From assembly GCA_902511005.1 (NCBI GenBank), contig CABXDN010000002.1, positions 117,900 through 181,899 on the forward strand: a stretch of 64,000 nt of DNA, in the 5' to 3' direction. The stretch is from an uncultured Candidatus Poseidoniales archaeon (GTDB lineage Archaea; Thermoplasmatota; Poseidoniia; Poseidoniales; Thalassarchaeaceae). A program made the translations under genes and the position numbers. Positions 7,441 through 63,082 of the stretch are shown here, piece after piece (position 1 is the first letter of the stretch; each line of letters starts with the position of its first letter). The notes below the pieces were generated by a model. The model was given only the letters and a program-made list of their open reading frames with translations, made no database searches and was not told the DNA's origin.

Positions 7441-7779
7441 TCATCCGAGATTTCGAAGTGAAAGTTCAATAGTGACCGAATCTGGATATTCAATCATCAT
7501 GATTGCTTTCAATGCCTTCTCATCTTTAGAACTATTAGTTACAAGTTCTAAGAGACGCTTGTGGAAACGCATTTCCCAATGATCCCAAGTTTCTGCGCCC
7601 TCACCATCTGGAGCTTTTCTGCATGGAACAACTAATTTACGAGTAGGTAAAGGTATAGGTCCACGAAGTGCAACTCCAGATTTATCTGAAATAGCCTTAA
7701 TGGTAGCACATACCAAATCTACATCTTTGTAGTTATCACCAGTTAACTTGATTGTAGTAACGACTGGCATTTTATTCAC
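7441..7779 (-). CDS. rps10: Ribosomal protein S10
   Basis: GPIPLPTRKLVVPCRKAPDGEGAETWDHWEMRFHKR. Confidence 0.93.
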   Translation of the reverse strand: MNKMPVVTTIKLTGDNYKDVDLVCATIKAISDKSGVALRGPIPLPTRKLVVPCRKAPDGEGAETWDHWEMRFHKRLLELVTNSSKDEKALKAIMMIEYPDSVTIELSLRNLG

Positions 7780-7799: not shown

Positions 7800-9095
7800 C
7801 TAAGCTTTCTTCTCAATCTTCATGCAGACGCCAGCAGCCACAGTCTTACCCATGTCACGAATAGCGAATCTTGCAAGTTCAGGGAATGCATCCATCTGCT
7901 CGATAGCCATAGGCTTGGTTGGTCCGAAACGGATTAAAGCAGCATCTCCAGTCTTCAGGAACGGAGGGTTTGCTTCCTTAGTCTTAGAATTCTCTAGTAG
8001 TTCTACAAATCGAACTGCTACTTGGCTAGTATGGCAGTGGAACACGGGCGTGTATCCTACACCGATAGCTTTCGGGATTTCCATAAGTTGAATTTGTCCA
8101 ACGAATGTTTCGTCGTGACGTACGAAGTTAGGTGCAGATTCAGGATATCCTGCAACGTCTCCACGGCGGATATCAGTTGCAGCTAATCCACGAACGTTGA
8201 ATCCAACGTTGTCGCCTGGTTCAGCCTTAGCGTGAACTGTGTGGTGCATCTCAATCGACTTAACTTCAGCAGATTTTTGACTTGGATTGAAAACTACAGT
8301 TTTACCTGAGTTTAGTGTACCAGTCTCAATCTTTCCTACCGGAACTGTTCCAATACCACTGATTTTGTAAACATCCTGAATTGGCAATCTTAGAGGACGG
8401 TCAGTTGGTTTTGGAGGCATCTGAATAGCATCAATTGCTTCGAAAAGAGTAGGTCCATTGTACCATGACATGTTCTCACTCTTGTTGTAGATGTTCTCTC
8501 CGTAGAAAGATGATCCTGCAATCATTGGAACGTCAGCCGGATTAAATCCTGCCATCTTTAATAGATTAGATACTTCTGTCTTAACTGAATTGTATTTATC
8601 TTCTGAGTAATCCACACCGCTAATATCCATCTTGTTGATGTTAACTATTAGTTGTTTTACTCCAAGGACACGTGCTAGGAAAGCGTGTTCCTTAGTTTGC
8701 GCGTTTACTCCATCGTTTGCAGCTACACAAAGTACTGCAGCATCTGCTTGGCTAGTTCCAGTGATCATGTTCTTTACGAAATCACGGTGACCAGGAGCAT
8801 CAATAACTGTGAAGTAATAGTTTGGAGTGTAGAATTCTTTGTGAGCTACGTCAATAGTAATTCCACGCTCTCGCTCTTCTTTCAGTCCATCCATAACATA
8901 AGCCAGACCGAAACCTGCCTTACCTTGCTCTGATGCAAGTTTCTCATTTTTGTCAATTACGTGCTGTTCAATATGACCGCTGTCTAGAAGTAGTCTTCCA
9001 ACTGTTGTCGATTTTCCATGGTCAACGTGACCAACGAATACTATATTCAAGTGCGGTTTCTTTTTATCTTCCCATTGTGAACCCATATGATACAC
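7800..9095 (-). CDS. tuf: Translation elongation factor EF-1 alpha
   Basis: [31 protein letters not shown] motifs. Confidence 0.97.
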
Positions 9096-9107: not shown

Positions 9108-9133
9108 CCGCCGACCGTAGAGGCATATTTGAA
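9108..9133 (-). promoter_or_regulatory. Promoter motif TTCAAATA-N9-GGTCGGCGG upstream of EF-1alpha
   Basis: Direct sequence match to the elements at 15146..15171 and 25027..25052. Confidence 0.6.
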
Positions 9134-14257: not shown

Positions 14258-14710
14258 TCATTTACGACCAAATTTCTTCTTTCTTTGCCCGCCAGTATTT
14301 CCTTTGAACGATTTACGCTGATTTCTAATTTGCTTATCTCCCTTCTTCTGAGATTTTTTATTTGTCGATTCATTGGCTTTTGCTTCTTTAAATTGACGAC
14401 GAAGCCGTAACCCAATAGATTGCATTACTCCTTCTTTTGATTCCGCTCTAGTTACAGAGATTGCTTCTTGAGTAGAAAGAATTAATCTCCCTTCTTTAGA
14501 ATGAGGACGAGAAGGGTGACTGGCTTCTAAATCTCTCTTCATTTTAGAAAGTCCTGCATCACGAGCAGCCCAAACTAAAGCATCTAAACTTGGATTTGGA
14601 ATAGACGCTTCTTTAGGAACTCTTCTTCCTTCGGAACGAGATAATTTGGAGTCGAAATATCGAGTCCAAAGAGTCATCTTTGACTTGTCCGCTGTCATGC
14701 TATCGCTCAC
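14258..14710 (-). CDS. srp19: Signal recognition particle SRP19 subunit (likely starts at the internal ATG, MTADKSK)
   Basis: LWTRYFDSKLSRSEGRRVPKEASIPNP matches SRP19 signature; basic C-terminus. Confidence 0.8.
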   Translation of the reverse strand: MSDSMTADKSKMTLWTRYFDSKLSRSEGRRVPKEASIPNPSLDALVWAARDAGLSKMKRDLEASHPSRPHSKEGRLILSTQEAISVTRAESKEGVMQSIGLRLRRQFKEAKANESTNKKSQKKGDKQIRNQRKSFKGNTGGQRKKKFGRK

Positions 14711-14747: not shown

Positions 14748-15140
14748 TCATTCTTCGATAAGAACGCCAGAAACTACTCCGTCCATGCCTGGTCTACTAG
14801 TTACTTTGACTTTGCCTAGATCGGTTTGAATGATTGCGCCTTTAGTAACTATGTTACGACGTACAAAGTTAAGATTTGCACTGTTTTCAATAACGTTTGA
14901 TATTGTAGAACGAGTAGTCTTACCATCCTTTGAGTGGACGTTTACTGTGTGAGCAGAAGTAACTCTAACGGTCTGTGAACCTGCGTTCTTTCGGTATTTC
15001 TTAGAAGCGTCTTCACTGCCTACAAAAGCGTATTGAGTTTCGCTAGAAATCTCTGTTCGGCGCTTGCCTCGATAACGGTTTGGTCGCTTCAAGCGTCCGC
15101 CTGTCGCCTTGCGTCGAGAGATACCATGCCACTTTGCCAT
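14748..15140 (-). CDS. rps8e: Ribosomal protein S8e
   Basis: WHGISRRKATGGRLKRPNRYRGKRRTEI; RNIVTKGAIIQTDLGKVKVTSRPGMDGVVSGVL. Confidence 0.95.
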   Translation of the reverse strand: MAKWHGISRRKATGGRLKRPNRYRGKRRTEISSETQYAFVGSEDASKKYRKNAGSQTVRVTSAHTVNVHSKDGKTTRSTISNVIENSANLNFVRRNIVTKGAIIQTDLGKVKVTSRPGMDGVVSGVLIEE

Positions 15141-15145
15141 GCAAG

Positions 15146-15171
15146 TCGCCGACTTGCCACCCTTATTTCAA
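15146..15171 (-). promoter_or_regulatory. Promoter motif TTGAAATA-N9-AGTCGGCGA upstream of S8e
   Basis: Direct sequence; ATG begins 5 nt downstream. Confidence 0.6.
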
Positions 15172-24830: not shown

Positions 24831-25025
24831 TCATAATCCGAAAGTACTTCCTAACCAATCAATAACGCCATGGTTAGCCAAGTATATAGTTACAGAAAAG
24901 AAAATACAAACGAAGTATATTGTTCCTCTGGAAATTTGGATAGCGTCCTCAGACTCTTCGTCGAAGTAACGAATTAAACCAGCCGCTTGCTGAATTCCAC
25001 TGCCTTTCTTGTCCTTAGCCATCAA
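24831..25025 (-). CDS. secG: Preprotein translocase SecG/Sec61-beta subunit (start ATG at 25022)
   Basis: MAKDKKGSGIQQAAGLIRYFDEE followed by one C-terminal TM; typical archaeal Sec61beta. Confidence 0.9.
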   Translation of the reverse strand: MMAKDKKGSGIQQAAGLIRYFDEESEDAIQISRGTIYFVCIFFSVTIYLANHGVIDWLGSTFGL

Positions 25026-25026
25026 C

Positions 25027-25052
25027 TCGCCGACCTACATACAGTATTTCAA
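25027..25052 (-). promoter_or_regulatory. Promoter motif TTGAAATA-N9-GGTCGGCGA upstream of secG
   Basis: Direct sequence; ATG begins 4 nt downstream. Confidence 0.6.
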
Positions 25053-43523: not shown

Positions 43524-46500
43524 TCAGAGAATTTCGTCAATGAATGAGGTATCAATATCATCATCCGCGTCATTCAAGCCTTCTGCTAAATCATCTAAAT
43601 CATCTAAATCAAAGTCGTCGGCTAAATCACTAAGGTCATCTAAGTCAATATCTTCTTCTTCGCCCAATAACTCATCAACTACATCATTAGATGGAGGAGT
43701 TACTGAAGTTTCAGAATAGTCCATTAGATCTATTTGAGGAGTTTCAATTTCGCCTGAACTAGATGATTCATCACTTTCGATGAAAGACTCTTCATCTTCC
43801 ATTCCAAAGTCTTGATCGTACATTTGTTCTTCAAGCTCGACTTCTAAAGTACCCATTTCCCATGGCTGAGGGGCAGCCCTTTCTCTAGGCTTCAACACTA
43901 AAGCACCACCAATCAAAATCATTATTCCAGATAAAACTGCAATTACCATATTCATATCGCCTTGAATTAATTGATTTATCCAAGATTCTCCTGAATCGTC
44001 TAATCCATCATTGTCACTACCAAATGCAGATTCCGACCATGGTTGAACTTCAAGAGGATCTACAGCAAGACGATGTACTTCTCCATCAAATCCTACTATA
44101 GCAATCCAATATGAATTCTCATTATCTAACGAGTATTCATTACCATCGATATTTTCAGAAATATCTGATTTCCAAGAATAACTAGAATATTCTATTGAGA
44201 CGAGTTGCGAAGTATCGGCATCTCTGGTATCTTCAAATGGAGTTGATGACATAAATATATAGTAGGATTCAATAATTGGGTTGTTCTTACTATCCCACTC
44301 TATCTGTATCCTCGTACCAGAACTATCCCAATAAGCAATTATTCCACCTATCTCAGGTATATGCAAACCAGGATCAAGGATATTTTCATTAATCAGAGCA
44401 ATTGACGATGTTTTTACGCCTTCACTCCAATAATTACCTGATGAATCAACTGGGATAACACTAACCCAGAACATAATATTAGGTGCCAATGGACTGCCAC
44501 TAGAAAAACTCTCAAGTAACAGTGGAAGCTGTAAATCTCTATCTACGATAAGTGCTGGTTCACGATTATCTAGAGTACTATATGGTACAGTATCAGCATA
44601 AATCCAATACTCGGAAATATCGGACTCCTCACTTTCTTTGAAGGTTACGAATACACCATCGCCATCATCTAAAGGACGGTCTGAAAGTTGAGGAGCATCA
44701 ATTCGCGCGGGAGGAAATACGTCGCCGCTATTATCAGAAGGAATTACTAGAACCATCTGTTTCTTCATGTCATTTAAGAAAACATTGCCATGAATATCAT
44801 GGGTTGTTACAGTGACATATAATGGAATCTCGGGAATTATAGAAGAAGAAGACTGAATTGAAAATTCATTCCCATAGTGGGCCTTGTAAACTGTCATCTG
44901 TAACTGGAATGCTCCACCGATTTGTTGTTGATTAATTGTAATAAGACCACATGAATCGGGAGATTCGGAACAATTCAACCAAGATTCTGTTAAATTTTCT
45001 TGATAAAAGTCAGAAACCCATATTGTGTAGAATGAAAAATCAGTAACTAAAGATCTATTCCAATTTACATCTATTGCTGTACCATCATCATCAGGATGAT
45101 CGTAAGCGTTCAAACCAGATACACGGGCGGGAGGTATTCCAACACCCCCATTATTTGATTGAGGTGTGACCTCGATTACTAGTACATCATTGAGATTATC
45201 GTTGCCCCAATCATCAGAGGCTACGACTCCAACCCAATATGAAATGTCATTAACAAACTGGGCCTCTCCAAAGGAGGAAATAATTGTTGAATTTGAAGAA
45301 CAATCTGAGACATAAGACGCAACTGGCCAGCCATCAACATTATTTGGAGGTTGCCAACTAGTTGCAGGAAGAGCATAAATTGTGTAAAAAGTACAATCGT
45401 CTTCATTATTAGATATCCAATTTACTTGTATTTGGCCGCCCTCATCATCTGGGACATCTATTGCAGTCGTTCCTTCGATTCGTGCAGGAGGTATCCCATC
45501 ATCAAGCCCGCCAGCAGTAACTATCGGCCCGATTACTGTGGCATTGATTAAATCTGATTGCCCGCTTTCATCGACACATACCGCCGCAAACCAATAAGTA
45601 GATCCTGGATTTAATTGAAGAACTGTATTATTACCAGAAATTGAAGATATATCGAAACTATCTGTTAATGCTAATGCGTTAGTAATCTCTTGTTCGACTG
45701 CCCATATCCTTGTCTTATCGGCATCCATCTCAGTACAAGCTGCCCATTCTGTATAAATTGTTCCTGCGGTTCCACCAGAAATCGGATTGGCAAGAAGCCA
45801 ATCTGGAGGAGAAGGAATTTCATCAATAGGGGTTACATTTAGTGGCCATGACATTGGCTCACCCACTGAGCCATCAGGATACTCGGTGACAATCGCTGCT
45901 CGATATTTATTTCCATCAATTAATGAAGACATTACGCCATTATGATCTGCTTCTGTTATTGTAGCAGTCGTTTGAGACCAAAATGGAACTTCCATGTATC
46001 CAGCGAAATCTTCTAACTCTTGTTCAGTAGGTTCCCATGAGGGGTTACTTGTAGAATCCCATACATATAATCTGTAAGCATACCAAGCTGCATCTTCGGA
46101 AGGTAACCAAGTTGCTTCGAGTACACCCCCTCCGTCATTATCCCTATTTGAGAATGAAGTTAAAATCGTAGGAACTTCAAGCCTCTCCCAATCATATGTC
46201 ATTCTAACACTAATTGTACCATTCTTAGGAGACTGCATTTGAACATGTAATTCAACAGAATTTGAACCAGGCCCGACATTAGAAATTGCTGTTTGGAAAC
46301 CCGCTTCAATGGCTGGATTCCTACTTGCTAAATCCCATGAACCAGTATAATTCAAAGAAACTGAACGCGCCCAAACAGGAGAGTTGGATACAGGGCTAGA
46401 AAATGTCAGAGCGCCATTATACATCGGTAATATGCCAGGTATTGAATTAGAATCATTGGGTATTAATAACGGACTGGAGACAAGGTTATCGCTACCGCTT

Positions 46501-49500
46501 GATGAGTTAACCATGACGGTTGACATCCCCGGATGACTGGTATCAGTCAGGCCCCATTGTTCACCTGCGAATAAAACGATTAAAGGTTCAGCGCGCTTCT
46601 GAAATTCTCGTGGATATTCCTGCCCATTTTGAGAATTGAAATGGTGTAAACCATCTTCTCCTACCACATATAATGAATTAGAATTAATGTATCCGCTTGA
46701 TAATCCCGATATGGATTCAGATAATACAACAGAGTGGTCTCTGTTAACTTCTAAGGCATCTAAACCACCTGAACCAATAAGCAGTAGATGTTCACCGTTA
46801 GAAACCATATCAGAAGGCGGCCAAGAAAGTAAATTAGACGCGCTAGTTCCAGATTCCATTTGCATCATTGTACCGTTCCAGTGTACTAATGGGGCGATAT
46901 CTGTGGCGACATGAACTCCCCAAGTATCTGCCTCCAAAGTCAAGACATTATTACTTGGAATCATATCAATCAAGTAAGTCCCATTTTGCATATCAGTATC
47001 GATATCCCAAGCAGCGACGCCGGGTCTTGTAGCACCTTGGCCATTATGAGAAATAAACACAGAAGCATTGTGATACTGGTCTATAGTAGAATTCCCTACA
47101 GTAACCTGTCTAGTTACTGAGTCTGCAAACATAATTCCTGAAACACGATTACCAATCAAACCGTCAGAATAATCTAATGTACTTTGTATTGTAAAAGTTT
47201 CATCTTCTAGAATTGTTAACCCTACCAAACCACCTACTAAGATAGTACCATTGCCTTGGATTGGATTGTCTAGAATCATTAAATGCTCAATAATTGGAGA
47301 AGGAAGGCCATTGAAGGTCGTTATTGGATTATCAAAACTCGAACTTGAAATATTATACAATCCAATACCGCCATGAGTAGCGATTAAAACGTGACCATCT
47401 AATTGTAGGAAATCTCTGACGATATTGCTTGGCAAACCAGCTATTAAACTACCAGAACCCCAATTTTCATTATTAATATCAAAAGATTGGTAGCCTGCAG
47501 AAGTTCCAGACTCTCCCATCAATCCAACATACATAGTGCCATCATCTTCAATGTACATTCCGTCCATTTGGGAATGAAGAGCAGGTGACGTTGGGCTCTT
47601 TGTACGTTGAAGGAGATCAACTTTCCAAAGACCGCTTCCAGCTGTAGTAACCCATAATTTCTCTCCTTCTAGAGATATATCATTAATTATGTCATTCTCA
47701 AAATTATACCCAAATTCCCACCTTACAGTTCCATTAGTTAATTCGCCTTGCAGAATAGAAGATGAATAATATGAATTCCTATCTTGACTTGATGTAACCC
47801 AAACATTAGTTTCATTATAGATGATATTTTGAATTTGACCGCTTGTTAATCCTACTAATTCATCATATCCACTTTCAATTAACCCTGTAGAATCTAATCT
47901 ATCAACTCTGTTCAATCCCGAGGTTTGGCCAGAGCGTCCTATAGCATACACAGGAGTGGTACTCGAAGGTGCTCGAACAATCGAACAACCGTCCATCCCT
48001 GGGCTTAGAATTTGGCCATTAATTGTAGAAGAACCAGAAGTAACTATTCTAGAAATTCCACCAGTAGTATCATATTGATGTGCTGTAAGAAGTACGTTCC
48101 CATCGTGTAACATGCCCCCAGGGAATATCCTATCTTCAGAAATACCATCAGCAGCATTCGTGAGTGTAGATAAGAATTGATCTGTATTGTAATTATACCT
48201 AGCAAGACCTACTCCTTGTTCATCGAATCCAGCATACATTATACGATTCGATTCGTCACATGCAAGGGCTCGAACATCATTATCCGCTAAACCATTTGAG
48301 GTTAGCACAGATGTTATCCACTCATCAGTTGTACCATCCGAGTCATGATCTGCTAAATCATAACGAGCGATTCCTCCTTGGTTACCCCACCAATTAACTG
48401 CACCAATTGCTATGTGAACTATATCGTCACATACCTCAATGTCTGCAGTATAGCCATCTGGGATACCGGCACTTCCGGTTTGCCATGTTGTCCAATTACC
48501 AGAGGTACCATTTTTACGAATAATTTGAGAATTTGTTTGGAAGCCCCCGCCGGAATAACTTCCTGCCCAAAGGTCATCACCAACAGTAATCATAGTGTAT
48601 AATTCATCTTCTGCATCAGAAGGTAATCCATCATTAACAACCCATGAATCTAGCCATGTCTCATTGTTAGGTTCCCAGCGAAGAATTCCATCCATACTAG
48701 CAAACAAATAATCGCCTTGATATTCTACTATGCCTCGAATTGGACCGGGTATATCGGTCCATTCATCAAGTAATGTCATTGTTTGTGCTGAAAATCTTCT
48801 CATAATATTGTTGCCATAAGCAACCCATAACTCACAGTCTGAAGCATTTATTGGGAAGCAATCGCCAAGGAACTGAGCGTTCACTCTCTCTACGCTACTT
48901 ATTGTAGAAAGAGATTCTTCCCATGTTTCATTAGTTAGATTCCATCGAGCAATAGTACCATCGCCCTCATTCCAGTATTGTCTTGGCCTTATCCCAATCC
49001 AAAGTTCTTCAGAAACTTGCCCGATACTATGGATTTTACCATCCCAACCAAGTTCTTGGCCAACATCAATAGTAGACTCACTAGAATTAGATGATAAATT
49101 AATTCTATAAATCTCATCATTAGATTGTTGCCAAGAATTAGATCTTTGTGTTGAATAATGTAGTATTTCATCAACTATTACAACATGAGCTGGTGCTGAA
49201 TTTGAAAGAGTTGGCCCTCCTGAATTAAAACCACGATTCCAATCGATTAACACATTATTATTCACCACATCAATAAGCGTTAACCCAAAGTCACCGCCTG
49301 CCCAAATTGTGTCTTCAATGTGTCCTGGAATAAGGACTGTTACATCATCGTCGTCAATAAATCCTTGATCACCATCCCATGTTTGAAGCCATTGCTGACT
49401 AGTGAGATTATATCTTCCTATTCCTGTATTCTCAAAACCAATATACAATATATCTTGAACCTTAACCACCCTAGCTCTTTGAGTATCATCTCCTGCTGTC

Positions 49501-52157
49501 CATCTTTCTACGACATCTAGTCCCGAATTTCGATTTATTAGTGAAGCCCCTTCGTTATGGCCTGCTAAGATTCGAGTACAACAACTGTCAGATAAAGGGC
49601 TACTGAAGGGCACTAGTTCTATAGAAAAAGTCTCACTGAATCGTGCAGATGTATTCATTGGAGAAATACATTCATCCCACTCATAAATATTATTTTGGAT
49701 TATTGTCCAACTTGTCCAAGTGCAAACCCCGCGATTAGTAGCCGCTACTACTCCATCGGCATCACTCTTGATATCATTAATTTTCCATGGATCATTATTA
49801 CCACCTGGGACATCTGTTTCAAAATATTCCCAATCTGAACCATCCCATCTAGCCATTGCTTGATTTGAGGTCCCCCCCGAATTAGGAACCTCCATTCCAA
49901 CAATTAAACCGCCGTAATAATCTAGGTGAAGAGCAAGCACATCATTATCAGGTAAGCCACTACTTCCGTCTGCATCCCATATATCTATTATATCACTGGA
50001 ATATCTATCTATTAATAAGATTCCAAAACCTGTCAGACCGAAGTAAATTATATCGCCGTCAACTGCTATTGGAGCAGCCTCTAAATTATCCGCCCCAAGA
50101 GATTTCCAAGAAGACAGAATTGATAATTCTTGTAGATTAATCCTCATTACTCCTTCATCAGGTGTCGCTATGTAAGCAATACCATATCTAGTTACAACAT
50201 CATTAATGAAATCTGAATCCAAGCCATCTTGTTCTGTTATCACGTCTGAAAGTATCATTGAAGAAGTATTGACAAAAGACAAACCGTCTTCAAAATGACC
50301 TACAACTAAGATTTCTGTAAAATCATCATGAGAAAGGGCCTTGACTGCATTGGACGCAAGTCCTTGAACAGTCCCGATATAGGACCCATCTGTATTGTCC
50401 AATCTTAATATGCCAGAATTAATTGTACCAACCCAAACATATCCGTTCGTATCTTGGATAAATGATGTAATTTCAACTGGGTTACTGACATAATCAGCGA
50501 TATTGATGGGCATAAGCCATGTTTGTGTACCTTCATCGAACCTATCGATTATTGTACCACCTGATACCCAAATCTCGCCATCTTCTCCATCATCAACATA
50601 TATTACTTGATTCATGGTATCGATTGAAGGACTACTGACTAATGTCTCTACACCATCAATTGTTTCACCGACTAAACGACCCAATATACCAGAACCGTCT
50701 CCAACCAATACTAACCCTGAGTCAGGACTTCTTGAATGCCCGAAATCTGGCCAAGAAATTATTTCATTTCCATTCTCTATCAGATTGAAAGCAGATAATT
50801 GCCTCTGAGAAGAAAAGAATAATGCATTAGTATCATAATTATGAATTGTATTTCCTGCAAGTATGTATAGCCATCCTTCTGTAAGACCTAATCCAACCAC
50901 TTGATTTGACGATAGCCAGTTACTTGTTGACCAAGTAGCCATCCATGAGCTTGAAACAAGATTACGCCGATTTATTCCTGCATTTTCGGTTGCTATTAAC
51001 AATTGATTACCAACTAATTGAAGATCATTAATCATATCAGAGGATAAGAAATTACCTGTATTCCATAATACGTTACTATCTACAGATACTGATGTCTCAT
51101 TAGAGCCACTAGAAGTTGAATATCCCAATAGATGGAGTCCTTGATAAGTGGAAATATACAGATTGTCTTCATAAGATACTACATCTGTTGCAGATTTAAT
51201 AGTCCCCCCAGGACAATAATAGTATGAAGTCCAACTTCCTCCGCTAGTATAGTAAACATTACACCCTGAGACAGCCCAAATTGTACCATAATCATCGATT
51301 GTAATAGCAGTTACTGGAGAAGTTGATGTTGCTCCATCAACAAGATTGAAAGTTTCCATTAAAGATGAATCGGACAGACTACGTTGTAATATAGTTCCAT
51401 TAGAGGTCCCAATAATCAAACGATTACCGTCTTCATCTATCGCGAGGCTTCTACCTCGGATATTCTCTTCAATATCAATTATTAGAGTTGAGGTCTGATC
51501 ATCAAGATGTAGTAAGTCATCTCCTAATAAAATGTATAATCGGCCATCGACTGGATTAACTGCGCTGTCATATATTTCTATGTCTAGCGGAGAAAAAGAT
51601 ACTTTTGGCTCAGCAGGACGGAGAGCTTCTATGACAATGTCTGTAATTGAAATTCCTGTTGGTAGTTGCCAGCTCGTATCACTTATCGAATTAGGTTGAA
51701 CTCTTGAATCTAAAACTCCGTTAGAATTTACTCCTGGTTGATTCTCGGAAAAGGAATCTTGTGTTCCAAATCCTCCTAAATCTGTCCAATCAAGTATAGG
51801 AGTTTGGCTATCTAGCAAAGTGATTTGTGGTTCATAAACCGATTCACCTGCCGAGCCATTTACTCTAACCTCAAAGGTCATGTTATCTATTATAGCACCC
51901 GGTGCGAAATCAAGGAATAAATCGCCATAAGCATATGTTCCATTAGAAGGATTGGCTCCAGTTGCTGATAATTCAATCCATCCAGTATCGTTACTTCCTC
52001 CTGCCCCCCAAGCGCCAGGTATTGAGTTTCTAGATTCTATATTTTCATCTAACTCTGAAGATGAATATGCAGACCAAGGTAGTAAAATCATCAAGGCCAC
52101 TAACAAGATTGCCATCCTTTTTTGCGAGCCAGATACCTTGTGATATGTGGAGCGCAT
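43524..52157 (-). CDS. Giant (2877 aa) surface protein: beta-propeller-like repeats, fibronectin-III-like modules, C-terminal TM and acidic tail
   Basis: Signal peptide, many propeller-like units (DIWAGGDFGL, WVGTINSGILRL, YIGFENTGIGRYN), PPARIxG modules, TM MVIAVLSGIMILIGGALVL. Confidence 0.85.
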   Translation of the reverse strand: MRSTYHKVSGSQKRMAILLVALMILLPWSAYSSSELDENIESRNSIPGAWGAGGSNDTGWIELSATGANPSNGTYAYGDLFLDFAPGAIIDNMTFEVRVNGSAGESVYEPQITLLDSQTPILDWTDLGGFGTQDSFSENQPGVNSNGVLDSRVQPNSISDTSWQLPTGISITDIVIEALRPAEPKVSFSPLDIEIYDSAVNPVDGRLYILLGDDLLHLDDQTSTLIIDIEENIRGRSLAIDEDGNRLIIGTSNGTILQRSLSDSSLMETFNLVDGATSTSPVTAITIDDYGTIWAVSGCNVYYTSGGSWTSYYYCPGGTIKSATDVVSYEDNLYISTYQGLHLLGYSTSSGSNETSVSVDSNVLWNTGNFLSSDMINDLQLVGNQLLIATENAGINRRNLVSSSWMATWSTSNWLSSNQVVGLGLTEGWLYILAGNTIHNYDTNALFFSSQRQLSAFNLIENGNEIISWPDFGHSRSPDSGLVLVGDGSGILGRLVGETIDGVETLVSSPSIDTMNQVIYVDDGEDGEIWVSGGTIIDRFDEGTQTWLMPINIADYVSNPVEITSFIQDTNGYVWVGTINSGILRLDNTDGSYIGTVQGLASNAVKALSHDDFTEILVVGHFEDGLSFVNTSSMILSDVITEQDGLDSDFINDVVTRYGIAYIATPDEGVMRINLQELSILSSWKSLGADNLEAAPIAVDGDIIYFGLTGFGILLIDRYSSDIIDIWDADGSSGLPDNDVLALHLDYYGGLIVGMEVPNSGGTSNQAMARWDGSDWEYFETDVPGGNNDPWKINDIKSDADGVVAATNRGVCTWTSWTIIQNNIYEWDECISPMNTSARFSETFSIELVPFSSPLSDSCCTRILAGHNEGASLINRNSGLDVVERWTAGDDTQRARVVKVQDILYIGFENTGIGRYNLTSQQWLQTWDGDQGFIDDDDVTVLIPGHIEDTIWAGGDFGLTLIDVVNNNVLIDWNRGFNSGGPTLSNSAPAHVVIVDEILHYSTQRSNSWQQSNDEIYRINLSSNSSESTIDVGQELGWDGKIHSIGQVSEELWIGIRPRQYWNEGDGTIARWNLTNETWEESLSTISSVERVNAQFLGDCFPINASDCELWVAYGNNIMRRFSAQTMTLLDEWTDIPGPIRGIVEYQGDYLFASMDGILRWEPNNETWLDSWVVNDGLPSDAEDELYTMITVGDDLWAGSYSGGGFQTNSQIIRKNGTSGNWTTWQTGSAGIPDGYTADIEVCDDIVHIAIGAVNWWGNQGGIARYDLADHDSDGTTDEWITSVLTSNGLADNDVRALACDESNRIMYAGFDEQGVGLARYNYNTDQFLSTLTNAADGISEDRIFPGGMLHDGNVLLTAHQYDTTGGISRIVTSGSSTINGQILSPGMDGCSIVRAPSSTTPVYAIGRSGQTSGLNRVDRLDSTGLIESGYDELVGLTSGQIQNIIYNETNVWVTSSQDRNSYYSSSILQGELTNGTVRWEFGYNFENDIINDISLEGEKLWVTTAGSGLWKVDLLQRTKSPTSPALHSQMDGMYIEDDGTMYVGLMGESGTSAGYQSFDINNENWGSGSLIAGLPSNIVRDFLQLDGHVLIATHGGIGLYNISSSSFDNPITTFNGLPSPIIEHLMILDNPIQGNGTILVGGLVGLTILEDETFTIQSTLDYSDGLIGNRVSGIMFADSVTRQVTVGNSTIDQYHNASVFISHNGQGATRPGVAAWDIDTDMQNGTYLIDMIPSNNVLTLEADTWGVHVATDIAPLVHWNGTMMQMESGTSASNLLSWPPSDMVSNGEHLLLIGSGGLDALEVNRDHSVVLSESISGLSSGYINSNSLYVVGEDGLHHFNSQNGQEYPREFQKRAEPLIVLFAGEQWGLTDTSHPGMSTVMVNSSSGSDNLVSSPLLIPNDSNSIPGILPMYNGALTFSSPVSNSPVWARSVSLNYTGSWDLASRNPAIEAGFQTAISNVGPGSNSVELHVQMQSPKNGTISVRMTYDWERLEVPTILTSFSNRDNDGGGVLEATWLPSEDAAWYAYRLYVWDSTSNPSWEPTEQELEDFAGYMEVPFWSQTTATITEADHNGVMSSLIDGNKYRAAIVTEYPDGSVGEPMSWPLNVTPIDEIPSPPDWLLANPISGGTAGTIYTEWAACTEMDADKTRIWAVEQEITNALALTDSFDISSISGNNTVLQLNPGSTYWFAAVCVDESGQSDLINATVIGPIVTAGGLDDGIPPARIEGTTAIDVPDDEGGQIQVNWISNNEDDCTFYTIYALPATSWQPPNNVDGWPVASYVSDCSSNSTIISSFGEAQFVNDISYWVGVVASDDWGNDNLNDVLVIEVTPQSNNGGVGIPPARVSGLNAYDHPDDDGTAIDVNWNRSLVTDFSFYTIWVSDFYQENLTESWLNCSESPDSCGLITINQQQIGGAFQLQMTVYKAHYGNEFSIQSSSSIIPEIPLYVTVTTHDIHGNVFLNDMKKQMVLVIPSDNSGDVFPPARIDAPQLSDRPLDDGDGVFVTFKESEESDISEYWIYADTVPYSTLDNREPALIVDRDLQLPLLLESFSSGSPLAPNIMFWVSVIPVDSSGNYWSEGVKTSSIALINENILDPGLHIPEIGGIIAYWDSSGTRIQIEWDSKNNPIIESYYIFMSSTPFEDTRDADTSQLVSIEYSSYSWKSDISENIDGNEYSLDNENSYWIAIVGFDGEVHRLAVDPLEVQPWSESAFGSDNDGLDDSGESWINQLIQGDMNMVIAVLSGIMILIGGALVLKPRERAAPQPWEMGTLEVELEEQMYDQDFGMEDEESFIESDESSSSGEIETPQIDLMDYSETSVTPPSNDVVDELLGEEEDIDLDDLSDLADDFDLDDLDDLAEGLNDADDDIDTSFIDEIL

Positions 52158-62544: not shown

Positions 62545-62570
62545 TTGAAATAGGGCAGGTAAGTCGCGAG
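62545..62570 (+). promoter_or_regulatory. Promoter motif variant TTGAAATA-N9-AGTCGCGAG upstream of S13
   Basis: Same box and same 9-nt spacing, second box one G shorter. Confidence 0.5.
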
Positions 62571-62617
62571 GATGCCGTAAAGGCCACTGGAAACAGTGAA
62601 CACGGGAGGACCGTAGA

Positions 62618-63082
62618 ATGAGTAAAGAAAAACAAGAGATTGGAGATGACTTCTCCTATATTATCAGAATGGCTGACAGCGACATAGATGGATTGAAACC
62701 AATAGCAATAGGACTTGCATCGGTTAAAGGCATAGGAGTCCGTACATCTCAGCAACTATGCAGACTAGCAAACATCGATGGAACAAAGCTTGGAGGTCAT
62801 CTAGAAGATGACGAACAAAATAGGCTTAGGGAAACTATTGATGGGTATGCAACTAATGTCCCATGGTGGTTAGTTAATCGTCAAAGAGATTTGGAATCAA
62901 ATGAGGATGCTCATCTTGTAGCAATGGATGTTAGAATGACTCGTGACGACGATATTTCACGTCTAGCTGGTATGAAAACATATCGTGGATTAAGACATAG
63001 AAGTGGTCACAAAGTTCGGGGTCAGAGGCTCCGAAGTAATGGAAGAAGTGGTACTGCACTCGGTGTGCAGAGGAAGAAGTGA
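62618..63082 (+). CDS. rps13: Ribosomal protein S13
   Basis: GLASVKGIGVRTSQQLCRLA; MKTYRGLRHRSGHKVRGQRLRSNGR. Confidence 0.95.
   Translation: MSKEKQEIGDDFSYIIRMADSDIDGLKPIAIGLASVKGIGVRTSQQLCRLANIDGTKLGGHLEDDEQNRLRETIDGYATNVPWWLVNRQRDLESNEDAHLVAMDVRMTRDDDISRLAGMKTYRGLRHRSGHKVRGQRLRSNGRSGTALGVQRKK

Follow-up and report, generated by a model that had tools for sequence, protein, structure and literature searches.

What reads a two-part sequence that stands in the same register before genes for EF-1alpha, ribosomal proteins and a probable Sec component in one archaeal genome? An earlier note on this DNA had pointed to paired boxes 9 nt apart at four sites in the window, by which we mean the whole 64-kb stretch of DNA analysed here. 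A check of the sequence located the bipartite element TTSAAATA-N9-RGTCGGCGR at all four sites (Table 1). The three exact copies (EF-1alpha, S8e and Sec61beta) lie on the minus strand, and only the S13 variant is on the plus strand. When the full pattern was searched with at most three mismatches, the window gave exactly three matches; 100 dinucleotide shuffles averaged 0.10 and none reached three, which places the set far above chance. The S8e copy in the window is in addition a perfect inverted repeat, GCAAGTC-GGC-GACTTGC. One target had been named SecG; a Sec-type gene is indeed probable there, but the name is now Sec61beta, which is itself probable, with a Sec61_beta Pfam score of 19.5 bits that lies below the cut-off. 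Elsewhere in the window, the minus strand carries a 2877-aa open reading frame (43524-52157) with only weak, propeller-like Pfam matches.

Table 1. Copies of the bipartite element in the window and the genes behind them.
Feature	Position	Strand	Basis or remark
EF-1alpha-S10 operon, TATA box TTCAAATA	9126..9133	-	Sequence; position agrees with archaeal TATA spacing
EF-1alpha copy, 9-nt spacer TGCCTCTAC	9117..9125	-	Sequence, spacer search
EF-1alpha copy, box 2 GGTCGGCGG	9108..9116	-	Sequence
EF-1alpha copy, whole TTCAAATA-TGCCTCTAC-GGTCGGCGG	9133-9108	-	ATG at 9086
EF-1alpha, first gene of operon	7800..9086	-	Pfam (PF00009 etc.)
S10, behind EF-1alpha in operon	7441-7779		Pfam
S8e-SRP19 operon, TATA box TTGAAATA	15164..15171	-	Sequence
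S8e copy, box 2 AGTCGGCGA	15146..15154	-	Sequence; predicted position about -14 to -6
S8e copy, whole TTGAAATA-AGGGTGGCA-AGTCGGCGA	15171-15146	-	ATG at 15140
Ribosomal protein S8e, apparently leaderless	14748..15140	-	Pfam PF01201; ATG 24 nt past TATA end
SRP19, behind S8e	14258-14710		Pfam
Sec61beta, TATA box TTGAAATA	25045..25052	-	Sequence
Sec61beta copy, box 2 GGTCGGCGA	25027..25035	-	Sequence
Sec61beta copy, whole TTGAAATA-CTGTATGTA-GGTCGGCGA	25052-25027	-	ATG at 25022
Probable Sec61beta/SecG gene, apparently leaderless	24831..25022	-	Weak Pfam match
S13, TATA box TTGAAATA	62545..62552	+	Sequence
S13, box 2 variant AGTCGCGAG, one G of GGC missing	62562..62570	+	Sequence; 38.1 bits in PSSM scan
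S13 copy, whole TTGAAATA-GGGCAGGTA-AGTCGCGAG	62545-62570	+	ATG at 62618
Ribosomal protein S13, predicted leader ~42 nt	62618..63082	+	Pfam PF00416

The element recurs before translation and export genes

Across the 1.30 Mb assembly, WWWW-N9-RGTCGGCGR matched seven times versus once for the reversed pattern. A PSSM that started from eight sites was refined on roughly 450 kb sampled from the organism's own genome and gave 15 matches of 25.8-39.4 bits in that sample, compared with a maximum of 14.9 for the reversed-matrix control; training on the same sample inflates the seed scores, and the fair comparison is that of the added matches with the reversed control. One match is the palindromic S8e site read on its other strand, which leaves 14 promoters in the sample. 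Behind them lie 16S rRNA, L3, L15e, L39e (named by sequence only, with no Pfam match to its relative), S2, S8e, S13 and an L11-domain gene, and the remainder serve EF-1alpha-S10, SecE, Sec61beta, an FKBP isomerase, NDK and glutamate dehydrogenase. The aIF2-beta and thermosome genes showed weaker PSSM matches of 11.7 bits, which fall inside the control range.

The genes downstream of the element across genomes were S8e (58), EF-1alpha (13), S3Ae (12), S13 (10), NDK (4), Sec61beta (4), S19e (3) and L37e (2), plus 16S rRNA leaders, in counts that include the own-genome sites and over-represent S8e because the search pattern resembled the S8e copy. Family f2 additionally carries the element at S12, L18e, L39e, L40e and S3Ae. 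Enrichment at further translation genes had been set out as a check on the motif pair, and such enrichment was indeed seen, with rRNA and many ribosomal proteins among the targets, in the organism's own and in related genomes. Between NusG and L1-like genes, a 92-aa L11-like gene with an RNA-binding domain has its own box-2 promoter (L025 14657-14935, minus strand). The Spt5/NusG protein at L025 15021-15896 (minus strand) has roughly 130 extra aa at its N terminus, Nudix-like on visual inspection, and its only Pfam matches are NGN and, weakly, KOW.

Spacing and orientation are fixed

Across 116 genomes of the order, a search open to any spacer of 2-22 nt returned 50 matches, every one of them with a spacer of exactly 9 nt; the reversed-pattern control gave one match. 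Around 72 box-2-like sites in the own-genome sample, nine TATA-like boxes stood at spacer 9 and between zero and three at each other spacer from 0 to 39 nt. Conservation of the 9-nt spacing, another point of the earlier note, thus holds without exception in the strict search and reappears as a peak in the own-genome histogram.

The spacer is G-rich and tends to GGGNWGGYA, which indicates that it is not free sequence. Within box 2, GTCG is nearly fixed, and the consensus is non-palindromic, since a palindrome would require A or C at the positions mirroring the left arm, and most of these are G. No A-rich BRE consensus was seen at -6 to -1 before the TATA box. At positions 30-31, G and C reach about 0.8 just ahead of the A of the leaderless ATG in a set that S8e dominates, and the (C/T)GC just before the start may be an initiator. 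This conservation profile is partly circular for the TATA and box-2 positions, which were part of the query, and is informative for the spacer and for what follows box 2, where the query left these positions free. Family f2 tolerates the box 2 variants GTCGGTGG and GTCGCCG, and a few S8e copies are degenerate. Taken together, the fixed spacing, single orientation and non-palindromic consensus speak more for a reader within the initiation machinery than for a dimeric operator.

Box 2 probably lies in untranscribed, early-melting DNA

In every unambiguous case among the apparently leaderless genes S8e, Sec61beta and NDK, the start codon follows the TATA box by 21-23 nt as scored across genomes (23-24 nt by the coordinates in the window), and box 2 ends 3-5 nt ahead of the start codon. 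Leadered genes have the same promoter with a leader added, which puts the start codon 35-69 nt after the TATA box, and some of the leaders contain a purine-rich ribosome-binding-like stretch. The S13 leader (62574-62617, plus strand) has a possible hairpin, CACTG-GAAA-CAGTG, ahead of a GGGAGG stretch. Two non-translation genes, with starts at window positions 2250 and 10402, have ACGCAAG directly before the ATG and lack box 2.

Archaeal TATA boxes are centred at -26/-27 (PMC8553660). Based on this usual position and on the geometry of the leaderless genes, we infer that +1 lies about 4-6 nt past box 2 and that box 2 occupies about -14 to -6, and hence would not be transcribed. With the start site predicted in this way, the TATA box falls at about -30 to -24, which is consistent with the leaderless start codons, which lie 21-24 nt past the end of the TATA box. 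The predicted box 2 interval overlaps the region from -12 to +3 that is melted in archaeal initiation complexes in vivo (PMC8448881), in the upstream half of the DNA that melts first. In Sulfolobus, the sequence of the melted region sets rRNA promoter strength and the response to TFE (PMC4495717).

The element is essentially restricted to one order

Named records with the same promoter-gene pairs place the organism, by inference, within the order that holds Marine Group II (Poseidoniales). Across the whole phylum, the pattern turned up often in families f1 and f2, where the control hardly matched at all. Beyond the order, single matches occurred in three genomes and a single control match in one, and the same pattern search found no match in the sister family f3. 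A scan of 84,980 genomes returned 107 stretches, and among the matches listed all but two records were Marine Group II. The Streptomyces record (L282) is a chance match, and the record labelled 'Deltaproteobacteria' (L216, AH-558-G13) contains a Marine Group II S3Ae gene behind this same promoter, which suggests that the record is probably contaminated. Viral contigs gave 45 pattern matches, about the number expected by chance on a rough estimate and mostly without the spacer consensus and without a gene start in register, and we saw no sign of viral use.

Loci fetched by protein or family similarity, and so independently of the motif, provided a footprint of the S8e promoter. The S8e copy was kept in 44 of 50 members of the order (at least five of seven matches to GTCGGCG at exactly spacer 9), and by the same criterion none of 16 scorable S8e promoters from other Thermoplasmatota had the element. 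Diverged relatives retained the TATA box, the spacing and box 2 while the flanking bases turned over. The proposal of a lineage-specific core-promoter element agrees with the phylogenetic distribution, in which matches are almost confined to the order.

What reads the element

We consider it somewhat better than an even bet that the element is a lineage-specific bipartite core promoter of ribosome-biogenesis and protein-export genes that is read by the initiation machinery. What the sequences show is a TATA box followed, past a spacer of 9 nt rich in G, by the directional GC-rich box RGTCGGCGR, in a fixed arrangement that is conserved across the order and found mostly at rRNA, ribosomal-protein, EF-1alpha and Sec genes. 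Against this, box 2 varies in family f2 and is degenerate in a few S8e copies, a GC-rich melting region is unusual in a strong promoter, the sequence specificity of box 2 would be superfluous for a simple role in melting energy, and NDK and glutamate dehydrogenase are not translation genes. The last two observations sit better with box 2 as the operator of a growth- or nutrient-responsive regulator, which would bind between TATA and start and block or help the polymerase; this reading is unlikely, but it deserves real weight. It draws on the strong GTCGGCG specificity, on a regulon-like target list and on the perfectly palindromic S8e copy in the window, and a site between TATA and start is typical for archaeal repressors. 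However, the box is generally non-palindromic by consensus, for which reason a palindromic operator, as suggested by the S8e copy, was set aside, and a spacing to TATA that is invariant in the strict search would be unusual for an operator.

It is far less probable that box 2 works at the RNA level, as a signal in the 5' leader that affects translation or stability. The box is common to translation genes, and the eukaryotic 5'TOP class offers a likeness, in which translation genes share a 5' signal. In the leaderless genes, however, box 2 ends 3-5 nt and the TATA box 22-24 nt before the ATG, distances so short that box 2 would lie upstream of the start site at normal archaeal spacing, and the element also fronts 16S rRNA, an untranslated RNA. 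Chance, or common ancestry of a few promoters, has next to no probability left. Although the box is short and related genomes are not independent, the element precedes many unrelated genes within one genome, reversed-pattern controls are near zero, and it is retained in diverged relatives despite turnover of the bases around the promoter; the PSSM scan, the 9-nt spacing, the distribution over 84,980 genomes and the S8e footprint together refute this explanation.

A second TFB is a candidate reader

As a sub-case of the core-promoter reading, with a likelihood contained in that reading and not additional to it, a divergent TFB (TFB-B) may select this promoter class as a dedicated initiation factor for ribosome genes, which we regard as doubtful although worth pursuing. 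Multiple TFBs confer promoter specificity in other archaea (PMC7289017). Most of the Poseidoniales genomes examined have two TFBs, and TFB-B forms its own 100/100 clade, whose stem measures about 3.9 changes per site and which does not group with the additional TFBs that sister family f3 has. The protein keeps four invariant cysteines, its helix after the SEVT motif is unlike that of the canonical TFB, and the promoter motif has the same order-wide distribution. On the other hand, co-distribution across one order amounts to a single event, the long stem makes the placement of the clade unsure, and f3 has three TFBs without the motif. Furthermore, TFB-B was not found in five of six genomes of genus g7, several of which retain the motif, nor in genome G078 among the genomes of the order searched. 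In three of the five g7 genomes the region flanking TFB-B stops at contig ends, and the absence there is likely an assembly gap. The highly divergent TFB-B locus of the organism's own order lies at about 11.1-12.3 kb of G000 C1 (L008, L336). A canonical TBP is present, and some genomes have an additional, weaker TBP-like match. TFB-B is thus a lead, a candidate reader suggested by comparison of sequences; the fuller proposal that Poseidoniales have a dedicated initiation system, in which TFB-B reads the GC-rich box in register with TATA and sets rRNA, ribosomal proteins and Sec genes apart as a coordinated class, is more doubtful still.

Discussion

If the element is a core promoter, TFB, RNA polymerase or TFE (possibly the order-specific TFB-B) would contact box 2 in register with TATA-bound TBP and TFB. 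Reading of the GC-rich melting region by the initiation machinery would make promoter opening the tuned step, which could set promoter strength and let ribosome genes respond jointly to growth state, in the manner of the bacterial GC-rich discriminator. In bacteria, this discriminator of rRNA and ribosomal promoters directly precedes the start site. The GC-rich stretch described here likewise lies upstream of the predicted start and may have a role in growth control, but polymerase and factors differ, and the Poseidoniales box has a strict sequence and spacing. We know of no link between the Poseidoniales element and a stringent response.

Compared with the archaeal core promoter of BRE, TATA and initiator (PMC7289017, PMC8553660), the element has the same TATA box and start-codon geometry, and the (C/T)GC-A step near the predicted start may represent an initiator. 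It differs in adding a fixed GC-rich box between TATA and start, and a clear A-rich BRE was not seen in the six bases upstream of TATA. The haloarchaeal proximal promoter element, or -10 element, is a 'WW' at -10 (PMC4983044). Box 2, at a predicted -14 to -6, falls in the same part of the promoter, about -10, but the haloarchaeal element is A/T, whereas the Poseidoniales box is a sequence-specific, G/C-rich stretch of 7-9 bp that occurs mainly at one gene set. The Poseidoniales element thus sits at the place of the archaeal proximal element and differs in composition, specificity and gene-set restriction. Haloarchaea have promoter classes tied to multiple TFBs (PMC7289017, PMC4495717), and with TFB paralogues in Poseidoniales as well, gene-set-specific promoters are conceivable; Poseidoniales, however, have only two TFBs in the genomes searched, and the pairing of TFB and promoter proposed here is drawn from sequence. 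We found no description of this element in the open-access literature searched; subscription journals may differ. Further elements of archaeal promoters have been suspected (PMC8448881).

The elements described for archaeal promoters are few, and the Poseidoniales element is strict, easily scored and common to rRNA and protein genes. It can serve in metagenomes to recognize ribosomal promoters of Poseidoniales by their sequence, and it allows a test of whether regulatory information resides in the region of archaeal promoters that melts. The element has the look of a switch or strength setting that the whole order uses for ribosome production, and as such it would be a direct handle on that setting in an abundant uncultured group of ocean archaea.
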